A stretch of 37,246 bases of DNA from Planctomycetota bacterium (GTDB lineage Bacteria > Planctomycetota > Phycisphaerae > Sedimentisphaerales > Anaerohalosphaeraceae), in the NCBI GenBank assembly GCA_023143375.1, contig JAGLHQ010000102.1:1-37246 (forward strand), in the 5' to 3' direction. Position 1 is the first letter of the stretch. Each line of letters opens with the position of its first letter. The position numbers and the translations under genes are program-made. Under the pieces are notes generated by a model. It made no database searches and had not been told where the DNA came from. It was given only the letters and a program-made list of their open reading frames with translations. This document shows positions 13,610 to 20,513 of the stretch, in pieces.

Positions 13610-13647
13610 CTCATTAGCTCCTGTGGTTTTGATTTATCAATATAAGA

Positions 13648-13676
13648 ATTATATCAATATATAGTTAGCTTGTCAA
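13648..13676 (-). promoter_or_regulatory. Consensus leftward early promoter
   Basis: On the minus strand TTGACA (13676-13671) and TATAAT (13653-13648) are separated by 17 bases, a full match to the sigma70 consensus. Predicted start is near 13641, giving a leader of about 30 bases with AGGAG before the ATG at 13609. The -35 lies in the operator arm 13668-13679. Confidence 0.88.
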
Positions 13677-13716
13677 GGTACTTATGTGATATTAATACGC
13701 GCCCACCTTGACAAGC
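13668..13716. promoter_or_regulatory. Paired operator between divergent promoters
   Basis: GCTTGTCAAGGT (13668-13679) and ACCTTGACAAGC (13705-13716) form a perfect 12-bp inverted repeat 25 bases apart. Each arm contains its own 9-base palindrome CTTGWCAAG, centred at 13673 and 13711. Each palindrome covers the -35 box of one divergent promoter, so a dimer bound at each arm would block both polymerases. The adjacent Xre-type protein is the obvious candidate ligand; this is inference. Confidence 0.7.
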
Positions 13717-13737
13717 CGTCTTTAATAGTTATATAAT
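13708..13737 (+). promoter_or_regulatory. Rightward promoter, probably making a leaderless regulator mRNA
   Basis: TTGACA (13708-13713) and TATAAT (13732-13737) are 18 bases apart. The ATG of the regulator begins at 13744, six bases after the -10, where transcription would be expected to start, so the mRNA probably begins with the initiation codon. The -35 lies in the right-hand operator arm. Confidence 0.82.
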
Positions 13738-13743
13738 CCCATC

Positions 13744-13992
13744 ATGAATAACGATCTATCTTTTACCGTATCTCTCGGCGCCGCACTAGATGCAGCCGGG
13801 GCGGGCGACACCCTGGCCGATAGGCTGCGGTGGTTAACCTATAATGCGCGTATATCAGAAGTTACAGCACGGAAATGGATAAAGGGCGGAGCATTTGCCC
13901 GTGTTGATCTTAGAGTATTGCGCAAGGTTACAGAAACCCTACAATGCACGCTCGACGATGTTTTATTGAAAACTGAGGCTGGCGCCCCATGA
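13744..13992 (+). CDS. Xre/Cro-type regulator (82 aa)
   Basis: A helix-turn-helix of the Xre/Cro class can be traced at about residues 22-76: LADRLRWLTYNARISEVTARKWIKGG as the first helices and turn, and LRVLRKVTETLQCTLDDVLL as the closing helices typical of compact phage repressors. No ribosome site is present and the ATG is at the predicted transcript start. The stop overlaps the initiator gene by ATGA. It probably binds the CTTGWCAAG pair just upstream and represses both early directions including its own, but whether it acts as a lysogeny repressor or a Cro-like timer cannot be told; no integrase was found. Confidence 0.75.
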   Translation: MNNDLSFTVSLGAALDAAGAGDTLADRLRWLTYNARISEVTARKWIKGGAFARVDLRVLRKVTETLQCTLDDVLLKTEAGAP

Positions 13993-14729
13993 CCGAAGAA
14001 AAGAGCGCCTACAGCGCAGATCCCCCCATCAGGCCGTTCGAGGGCGTAGGTAAATATACGGCTTTCCCCAATGATGCATTCAAATACATCATGCCCGATT
14101 GCAACGGCGGCACATGGAAACTTGTTTGCTTGATTACTAGAAATACCATAGGCTGGCATAAACCCAGTGACAAAATGAGTTTTTCTCAGATCATGAAGGG
14201 CTGCGGATTCTCTAGCCGGGAGACATGCAAAAACGCTATTGATGATGCATTGGACAGGGGCTATATCTTGCGCCAACCGGACGGGAATTCATTTTCATAC
14301 TCACTCAATAAAGGGTACGAATTCCGTACCAGTACAGAAATCGTACCATCAGGCGGTACAGAAATCGTACCCAAAACGGTACGAAAATCGACCCAAAACG
14401 GTACGAAAACCGAACACACAAAACAGAAAAAAGAAAATTTCTTAAATGTCTTTAAAGGTCTTAAGGTTTCTGACAATGAAAAACTTCTTTTTGCAGAGCT
14501 GCAAGAATTCCTAAAAACAAATGTTGCACAAAAAAGCTATCAGGCATTTGCGGCGGATCTGGCATACATTGGCGCCGTCGATGGCACAGCCTGTATCAGT
14601 GCCGGCAGTTCATACCAAAGGGATTGGGTAGACGCCAGGCTATCCGATCATATCCAATCTATTTTAGGGATGGATGTTTTAGTAATCACCAATGATCAAG
14701 CACAATCTATCCAGGGAGTAATACAATGA
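13989..14729 (+). CDS. Lambda O-like replication initiator with DnaA N-like C-terminus (246 aa)
   Basis: Residues 22-107 match the winged-helix N-terminal region of lambda O-type initiators (YTAFPNDAFKYIM, LVCLITRNTIGWHK, MSFSQIMKGCGFSSRETCKNAIDDALDRGYI). Residues 109-150 are a polar linker whose DNA carries the iteron repeats. Residues 163-234 resemble the DnaA N-terminal interaction domain (EKLLFAELQEFLKTNVAQKS, then DWVDARLSDHIQSILGMDVLVI). The likely role is binding the phage origin and recruiting the host helicase machinery. It overlaps the regulator before and the membrane protein after by ATGA. No separate helicase loader is recognised. Confidence 0.78.
   Translation: MTEEKSAYSADPPIRPFEGVGKYTAFPNDAFKYIMPDCNGGTWKLVCLITRNTIGWHKPSDKMSFSQIMKGCGFSSRETCKNAIDDALDRGYILRQPDGNSFSYSLNKGYEFRTSTEIVPSGGTEIVPKTVRKSTQNGTKTEHTKQKKENFLNVFKGLKVSDNEKLLFAELQEFLKTNVAQKSYQAFAADLAYIGAVDGTACISAGSSYQRDWVDARLSDHIQSILGMDVLVITNDQAQSIQGVIQ
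14314..14460 (+). other. Putative replication origin: GTAC iterons plus AT-rich flank inside the initiator gene
   Basis: Eight GTAC cores start at 14315, 14326, 14332, 14343, 14356, 14367, 14379 and 14401. Three pairs are 11 bases apart and the last two are 22 apart, which is helical phasing. GTACAGAAATCGTACC occurs twice (14332-14347, 14356-14371) and CCAAAACGGTACGAAAA twice (14371-14387, 14393-14409). The latter two copies are read in different codon frames, so selection acts on DNA. An AT-rich run follows (about 14413-14460), the order seen at lambda ori within gene O. Confidence 0.75.
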
Positions 14730-16272: not shown

Positions 16273-16941
16273 ATGAAAACAAAACTCAAGCTACAAGACG
16301 CCGAAAGATTGGGCGTTAGCATTCTGGCCACACTCAATACTTTGAATATGATCACTGCCGGGCTTCTGGCCGGATCCGTGCGCCGAGAGGTGCAGGAAGT
16401 GGGGGACATAGAGTTACTGGTATTTGCCAAGTATGGCAAAGCTACCGACGCTCTGCGGCAAATGACTTTATTCCAGCCGCCGCCAGAATTCATACAGATT
16501 GATTTGATGAACACTTACACGCCTCTTTTATTTGAGAAGATCACGCACCTGATACCTGGCCTGAAGAATGGCCAGAAATATAAACAGTGGATCTATGATG
16601 ATGATACGACCAGGGTTAATATAGATTGCTTCATCTGCCATGATCGTGATCAATGGGGTTTGCTCCTGGCGCTGCGTACCGGATCCGCTGGATTTATGAA
16701 GGTTCTGGCCACGCATATTAAATACAATCTACCTGGTGTAACATGGCAGGCGGCCAGATTGTGGGAACATGAAGATTTGCAGGGTAGGGCATTGCAACCA
16801 GGAGACAAGGCCAACCGAATAGCAACACCCACAGAAACCGACTTTTTTAACGCTATTGGCCTGGCCACCATTCCGCCCAATCAAAGGAATGAGGCAGCGG
16901 CCCGGCGCCTGGTGGCGGCATGGACGGCACATAATGACTAA
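16273..16941 (+). CDS. PolX-like nucleotidyltransferase (222 aa)
   Basis: The DNA polymerase beta-type palm signature GSVRRE (34-39) and GDIE (44-47: Asp45, Glu47), the third acidic residue in VNID (Asp118), a TGSAGF motif (136-141) and the closing TETDFF (187-192) and IPPNQR (200-205) blocks are all in family order. The protein lacks a separate 8-kDa domain and a PHP domain, and has Glu in place of the usual second Asp, as in many small phage and bacterial relatives. It could fill short gaps or transfer nucleotides to another substrate. It overlaps the ASCH-type gene by eight bases. Confidence 0.78.
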   Translation: MKTKLKLQDAERLGVSILATLNTLNMITAGLLAGSVRREVQEVGDIELLVFAKYGKATDALRQMTLFQPPPEFIQIDLMNTYTPLLFEKITHLIPGLKNGQKYKQWIYDDDTTRVNIDCFICHDRDQWGLLLALRTGSAGFMKVLATHIKYNLPGVTWQAARLWEHEDLQGRALQPGDKANRIATPTETDFFNAIGLATIPPNQRNEAAARRLVAAWTAHND

Positions 16942-19698: not shown

Positions 19699-19728
19699 TA
19701 CCCAATATAGTTGGTCTTGTATTGGGTA
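19699..19728. repeat. Inverted repeat before the PP-loop gene
   Basis: TACCCAATA (19699-19707) and TATTGGGTA (19720-19728) are perfectly complementary with a 12-base loop. It lies in the 63-base gap before the PP-loop ATG at 19746, with AAAGGAAAGG between. No U tract follows, so an operator or an RNA element is more likely than a terminator. Confidence 0.5.
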
Positions 19729-19745
19729 ATGAAAGGAAAGGTATT

Positions 19746-20513
19746 ATGAAACATATAATTAGTTTTTCATCTGGCTTGTCCTCTGCCCTAGTCGGCGCAC
19801 GCGTTATTGAAAAATTTGGCAAAGACAACACAGTGTTTGTTTTTATGGACACCACCACCGAAGACGCAGACAACTACAGATTTTTAAGTGATTACAAAAA
19901 GCACTTCAATGTACCCATAAAAACATTATGTGTTGGGAAAACGCCTTTTGAAGTACTAGAGGCCGCTAAAATGGTCGGGTCTCAATACGCGGCAAAATGT
20001 ACGGAAATATTAAAAATAATTCCATTCAGAAATTTTTTAGAAACCCTTGGCGGCGAACCACTAACCATACACATAGGGTATGATTTTTCAGAGGTCGAAA
20101 GGTGCGACGCGACCACGGAGGCTTATAAGAAACTGGGATACGCTGTTGATTACCCGCTATTGTGGAAACCCTACGAATATAGAAAATATTCACAGGTCGC
20201 GCGCGAAGATTGGAATATAGAACCGCCGCGAATGTACGCACTAGGATATAAGCACGCGAATTGCGGCGGGCAGTGTGTAAAGGCAGGGCGTGGAGATTGG
20301 AAACGAACTTATATTAATTTCCCCGAAAGGTACGAAGAGGCCGAAAGCTGGGAAGCCCACATGATAAAAAACGTAACGGCTAAACTATTTACAATATTGC
20401 GCGATCAATCAAATCAAGAAGTTAAGCCAGTGACTTTAAAAGAGTTTAGGGAATTGATTACGCCGCCACCGGAGGAGCTAGATTTTTTTCCGCGTGTGTG
20501 CATTGTGGAATAG
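19746..20513 (+). CDS. PP-loop (PAPS-reductase-like) enzyme (255 aa)
   Basis: The start is at the ATG after AAGGAAAGG; a longer frame at 19722 lacks one. SFSSGLSSA (6-14) is a variant PP loop of the adenine nucleotide alpha hydrolase superfamily. VFMDTTTEDADNYRFLSDY (32-50) follows as in phage PAPS-reductase-like proteins, and the cysteines Cys85, Cys173 and Cys177 (ANCGGQC) may hold a metal or sulfur. Known relatives activate a substrate through AMP and some act in sulfur transfer or DNA modification. The partner genes for such a pathway were not recognised, so the reaction remains open. Confidence 0.7.
   Translation: MKHIISFSSGLSSALVGARVIEKFGKDNTVFVFMDTTTEDADNYRFLSDYKKHFNVPIKTLCVGKTPFEVLEAAKMVGSQYAAKCTEILKIIPFRNFLETLGGEPLTIHIGYDFSEVERCDATTEAYKKLGYAVDYPLLWKPYEYRKYSQVAREDWNIEPPRMYALGYKHANCGGQCVKAGRGDWKRTYINFPERYEEAESWEAHMIKNVTAKLFTILRDQSNQEVKPVTLKEFRELITPPPEELDFFPRVCIVE

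Follow-up and report, generated by a model that had tools for sequence, protein, structure and literature searches.

A probable oriLambda-type phage origin inside its initiator gene, and an initiator with a DnaA domain I-like C terminus

Introduction

At the origin of phage lambda, dimers of the O protein bind iterons, bend the DNA and open the adjacent A+T-rich run on supercoiled DNA. O then hands over to P and DnaB, and transcription from PR activates the origin (PMC5043065, PMC7466680). In phage P1, too, the RepL/oriL origin is believed to be located within the initiator gene, in which an A+T-rich coding stretch is sensitive to synonymous change (PMC9948254).

Here we describe a comparable locus in a contig from a Planctomycetota bacterium. 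The window, that is the whole stretch of DNA analyzed, is the entire contig of 37,246 bp. On the evidence of its sequence we give a probability of roughly 0.85 to the reading that positions 14314-14470 form a phage origin of the oriLambda type inside the initiator gene, with the host helicase probably being recruited via a DnaA domain I-like module of the initiator.

Results

Gene Context

The window encodes terminase, portal, major head protein, tail and endolysin, and is therefore a phage or prophage. The contig was searched for a terminal repeat and none was found. GC skew across the window tracks gene direction and for this reason was set aside as an origin marker. The coordinates of the replication features are given in Table 1. 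The initiator gene had been described as lambda O-like in an earlier note made from the sequence alone, and its PHROG match bears this out. The 3' end of the gene for a Cro/CI-type HTH regulator overlaps the initiator gene start (13992 versus 13989), and a putative promoter reads into both genes. This promoter-like site and its divergent partner share an inverted repeat in the region 13640-13740, GCTTGTCAAGG...CCTTGACAAGC, which might serve the HTH protein as an operator.

Among the scanned ORFs of the window, which were all but a few short ones of a possibly incomplete contig, none was recognized as a helicase, helicase loader or primase. The gene after the initiator is not P-like by Pfam or PHROG. 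Near the initiator is a gene for a DNA polymerase beta-like nucleotidyltransferase (16273-16941; Pfam match below cut-off), and a neighbor gene in the relative L057, described below, resembles it as judged by eye (L057:2532-3191). The early region also holds a phosphoadenosine phosphosulfate reductase-like gene (19722-20513; PHROG E 1.5e-33). A second Phage_rep_O-type gene, L293 (G000:C180), is found in the same assembly and adjoins an integrase-like gene.

Table 1. Features of the replication region, in window coordinates
Feature	Position	Strand	Remarks
Divergent sigma-70-like promoter, TTGACA-17-TATAAT (putative)	13648..13676	-	12/12 consensus matches
Sigma-70-like promoter, TTGACA-18-TATAAT (putative), into HTH and initiator genes	13708..13737	+	12/12 consensus matches
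Cro/CI-type HTH regulator gene	13744..13992	+	Pfam HTH_26, E 9e-4, narrowly below cut-off
Lambda O-like replication initiator gene, 246 aa	13989..14729	+	PHROG replication initiation O-like, E 2.8e-11; Pfam Phage_rep_O below cut-off
Winged-helix DNA-binding domain (predicted), residues 28-106	14070..14306	+	AlphaFold2 pLDDT mostly >90; Foldseek winged-helix matches
Iteron 1, GGTACGAATTCCGTACC	14314..14330		Codon phase 1
Iteron 2, AGTACAGAAATCGTACC	14331..14347		Codon phase 0
Iteron 3, GGTACAGAAATCGTACC	14355..14371		Codon phase 0
Iteron 4, GGTACGAAAATCGACCC	14378..14394		Right arm degenerate; codon phase 2
Iteron 5, GGTACGAAAACCGAACA	14400..14416		Right arm degenerate; codon phase 0
A-rich, A+T-rich run, presumed strand-opening element	14417..14470		73% A+T over 14412-14470
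DnaA domain I-like C-terminal domain, residues ~162-235	14472..14693	+	Pfam DnaA_N below cut-off; Foldseek; genome search; BLASTP with a true DnaA

An Array of GTAC Dyads

All eight GTAC cores reported in the earlier note are present, starting at 14315, 14326, 14332, 14343, 14356, 14367, 14379 and 14401, and both pairs of longer repeat copies, 22 and 24 bp apart, are exact. Outside the array the density of GTAC is at most four per 90 bp anywhere in the window, and a Poisson estimate for eight in a given 90 bp is ~9e-10. The cores pair into five 17-bp dyads of the form GGTAC-N7-GTACC, the iterons of Table 1. In dyads 4 and 5 the left arm is intact and the right arm degenerate. The window contains the string GTACN7GTAC three times against an expectation of 0.14, and each copy falls within the array. 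The dyads are spaced 17, 24, 23 and 22 bp from center to center, equivalent to 1.62, 2.29, 2.19 and 2.10 turns. The 11-bp steps for which the iterons had been called helically phased are real as distances, but the label is inexact because they are the half-site spacings inside one dyad. The A-rich run said to follow the repeats is also present: the 59 bases from 14412 to 14470 have an A+T content of 73%, compared with 51% for the window overall.

The iterons occupy all three codon phases. The proposal that the repeats ignore codon phase holds in this respect; the pair of 16-bp copies, offset by 24 bp, is nevertheless read in one frame, so frame independence rests on the other units. In a synonymous recoding test the peptide was fixed and codons were re-drawn from the phage's own usage in 20,000 trials. 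Eight GTACs were regained once (1/20,000) and three GTACN7GTAC strings, the intact dyads, never (0/20,000). Because recoding almost never restores the pattern, the dyads are not a by-product of the peptide and are maintained as DNA, as had been suggested.

Winged-helix Domain and Linker

Foldseek matches of the AlphaFold2 model of the initiator were mainly to winged-helix proteins. The predicted N-terminal domain is of the O-type winged-helix kind that characterizes the lambda O family. Residues 116-159 are disordered in the model, and the DNA that encodes them takes in the greater part of the iterons and of the A-rich run.

Two other types of initiator were considered and rejected. DnaA itself was ruled out by Pfam, which found neither an AAA+ ATPase nor a DnaA DNA-binding domain in the 246-aa protein. 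Iteron plasmids mostly have direct-repeat iterons, which are bound by monomers of a plasmid Rep initiator. The iteron-plasmid type (RepA, Pi, RepE) was set aside since the units here are dyads, the initiator is O-like and there was no plasmid Rep or plasmid match.

Conservation of the Array in Relatives

No close whole-protein relative was found in viral contigs (with a single-sequence query) or in plasmids, and the same search among phages gave three distant cyanophage matches. A viral scan with lambda O returned near-identical copies only. None of the viral contigs, phages or plasmids contained a relative near enough to trace single iterons over short times, so repeat conservation could be assessed only with relatives sharing at most 45% identity.

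Within the host family, L057 is the nearest relative, with 45% identity over residues 13-139. Its array consists of four copies of TATCCCAGAAAATGGGATA, the last imperfect, spaced at 42, 24 and 24 bp, in the same position as in the window gene and followed by an A-rich run. The dyad count of L057 was regained in 0/20,000 recodings. Searching viral contigs with a profile added 26 relatives. In most of them 3-4 repeats of ~17 bp, at a pitch of 21-24 bp, occupy the corresponding position, and the repeat sequence varies by lineage. The repeats were located with a simple repeat finder, which gave no clear array in a few of these relatives, for example L199 and L208; the sequence of L200 is incomplete. 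The closest of the 26, L183, has three copies of CTAGTCCTAAAATCGTACC, which have AAATCGTACC in common with the window iterons (one base off in some units) and gave no inverted repeats. Every repeat in L057 and L183 is in one codon phase, and these two genes alone would therefore not show frame independence.

According to the earlier note, relatives that kept the amino acids and lost the DNA repeats would speak against an origin. We observed the reverse: the position and geometry of the array persist among the relatives, and the repeat sequence and the linker peptide do not.

Searches with the GGTAC Dyad

Viral contigs were scanned with a key of two GGTAC-N7-GTACC dyads within 30 bp, which gave 53 stretches. 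PHROG replication initiators were matched by 8/10 of the covering genes tested, and one more matched HTH_36 weakly. In the majority of these genes the units stand in mixed codon phases. As a control, a key that had GGATC arms gave 32 stretches, with 3/10 genes tested being initiator- or primosome-like (L327, L336 and L344); as the tested genes were picked by eye, neither proportion is a rate. The GGATC control also yields initiator genes, which rules out GGTAC as a special origin word. It is one among many iteron specificities.

One viral stretch (L019:9851-10927, minus strand) has GTAC dyads followed by direct repeats of GGAGATCA in place of an A-rich run. The key also found many matches outside long ORFs in bacterial genomes, and these are apparently unrelated. 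The sequences of Flavipsychrobacter (L061, L063, L067 and others) and of methylotrophs (L062, L064, L076 and L094) contain abundant GGTAC-N7-GTACC repeats, mostly outside long ORFs, and a REP-like family, GTAGGGTACGC...GCGTACCCTAC, neither of which has an apparent link to origins.

A Short Element beside the Iterons

The motif [A/T]CAAAAGA follows the last iteron within 66 bp, mostly 0-4 bp away, in 24/31 O-type genes. The expectation is 6.5/31 when every gene is recoded synonymously from its own codons, and there is one occurrence elsewhere in those genes; since many of the genes are related they do not count independently, and part of the data had been seen before the motif was chosen. The sites are in lambda (L181 from 1120), L057, L183-L198, L289-L292, L303-L306 and L317. 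Two copies of the element, 14-20 bp apart, are present in lambda, HK97, RCIP0098, SEN34, L195 and others. Its codon phase is a different one in mEpX1, Pocitis76 and L289. The exact motif ACAAAAGA is absent from the window initiator gene, which carries the near form ACAAAACAGAAAAAAGAAAA. The open literature searched, whose coverage does not extend to the older lambdoid-origin papers, contained no description of the element. The ACAAAAGA element, present next to the iterons in lambda and many other O-type genes, is possibly a strand-opening signal.

The C-terminal Domain

Pfam DnaA_N matched initiator residues 168-226 with an E-value of 1e-4, 2.2 bits below the cut-off. Of the 46 initiators collected, O-like or related, the window's alone gave this match, and L057 gave none. 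Full-length AlphaFold using the alignment of relatives left the C-terminal domain unresolved, probably because the relatives have other C termini. A single-domain run did better, with a single-sequence model of residues 150-246 at pLDDT 71.8; the remaining four of five models were poor. The top PDB match of this model in Foldseek was DnaA domain I (4tps; E 5e-4, probability 1.00, TM 0.52/0.58) and the second was H. pylori DnaA I-II; further down was the helicase loader DciA (8a3v, E 0.024). In 99 host-phylum genomes the best match to the domain besides the window was the N terminus of true DnaA (E 1.9e-5, 30% identity over 61 aa, ungapped), a protein that itself matches a solved DnaA at 1.6e-101. 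The host-phylum genomes also encode DnaA-like proteins of ~344 and 486 aa (L357 and L360) with ATPase motifs that, by reading, have diverged.

E. coli DnaA domain I touches DnaB via Glu21 and Phe46; further functions of DnaA domain I are the self-interaction of DnaA and the binding of DiaA, HobA and SirA (PMC5448010). Helicase recruitment is the likeliest role of the module in the window protein but need not be the sole one, given that domain I interacts with regulators and with itself. Near what we take to be the positions of Glu21 and Phe46 the window protein has Ser and Tyr, and the following D-W-V is kept; the alignment is a lead only.

Discussion

We infer a mechanism of the lambda kind. 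Dimers of the initiator would bind the 17-bp dyads through their winged helices, the half-sites being spaced by 11 bp (roughly one turn). Once assembled, the complex would melt the adjacent A-rich run, a step that transcription from the putative upstream promoter may aid. Finally, the DnaA domain I-like module would bring the host DnaB helicase, as O does through P in lambda. If so, the protein would be a natural chimera of an O-type origin-binding domain and a DnaA domain I that recruits the host helicase directly, with no need for DnaA or for a loader of the P or DnaC type. We advance this last proposal tentatively and at somewhat less than even odds.

The main alternative accepts the lambda-type origin but has the module oligomerize, or contact host DnaA or its regulators, with the helicase being loaded otherwise. 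It draws on the residue that tentatively replaces Glu21 in the alignment and on the self-interaction of DnaA domain I and its binding of DiaA, HobA and SirA. We regard this as a plausible minority view. It has to be set against the fact that no other helicase-loading gene was recognized in the window, although several of the sampled lambda-like O-type phages have P, DnaC-like or DnaB genes immediately after O. The fold of the module also resembles that of a helicase loader, DciA.

It is improbable that the array is instead a binding site at which the initiator or the HTH protein regulates transcription of the gene. Dyads are typical of operators and the gene immediately upstream encodes a Cro-type HTH protein, but the array is 570 bp into the operon and consists of five units with an origin-like pitch and an A-rich run after them. 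Its location matches that of the mapped lambda origin, and the promoter pair has a candidate inverted repeat of its own.

Selection for the peptide, as a tandem repeat of the protein (STEIVP...GTEIVP), would account for the two copies in the same frame with near-identical peptides and for the single frame of the repeats in L057 and L183; this reading, to which we attach very little weight, is already contradicted by units 1 and 4, which sit in the other two frames, by the near-complete failure of synonymous recoding to restore the pattern, and by a linker that is predicted to be disordered and has a changed peptide in relatives. Equally remote is a role of the dyads in mRNA, as hairpins tuning translation or termination: the RNA does fold more favorably than shuffled sequences (z -4.4), but any set of dyads folds well, as lambda iterons likewise do (PMC7466680), and L183 keeps its array though its repeats gave no inverted repeats.

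Read as an oriLambda-type origin, the locus extends this kind of origin and of O-like initiator to a non-lambdoid phage. Between relatives the sequence of the iterons turns over while their position and geometry hold. The compact initiator of 246 aa joins a predicted origin-binding domain to a candidate DnaA-like helicase-contact domain. The chimera, if true, would offer a minimal system in which to ask what DnaA domain I alone does in helicase loading.

Comparison with Known Systems

RepL/oriL of phage P1 is similar in having its origin within the initiator gene, a likeness drawn from its description and not from its sequence. The C-terminal domain of the window protein is like DnaA domain I of chromosomal DnaA by Pfam, fold and sequence, but is C-terminal where that of DnaA is N-terminal. 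It also resembles the fold of DciA, which contains a KH-like domain (PMC9865707), although there is no sequence match to DciA and the fold match is weaker than that to DnaA.

The closest system is oriLambda, with which the locus shares 17-19 bp dyads with A-rich centers, located inside the initiator gene past the DNA-binding domain (PMC5043065, PMC7466680). With the NC_001416 annotation as reference, lambda iteron starts are spaced 20, 24 and 23 bp, compared with centers at 17, 24, 23 and 22 bp in the window. The codon phases are 0, 2, 2, 1 in lambda and 1, 0, 0, 2, 0 in the window, and the stretch of lambda that matches the A-rich run is 74% A+T against 73%. The repeat sequence differs, and the window has five units (two degenerate) where lambda has four. 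The likeness to the lambda origin drawn in the earlier note thus extends to position, dyad geometry, pitch, codon phases, A-rich run and initiator family, and stops at the C terminus, which in lambda O is a P-binding domain and here is DnaA domain I-like, with no P gene or P-type loader found. The probable origin belongs to the known lambda type, and it is this domain swap that sets the initiator apart from lambda O.
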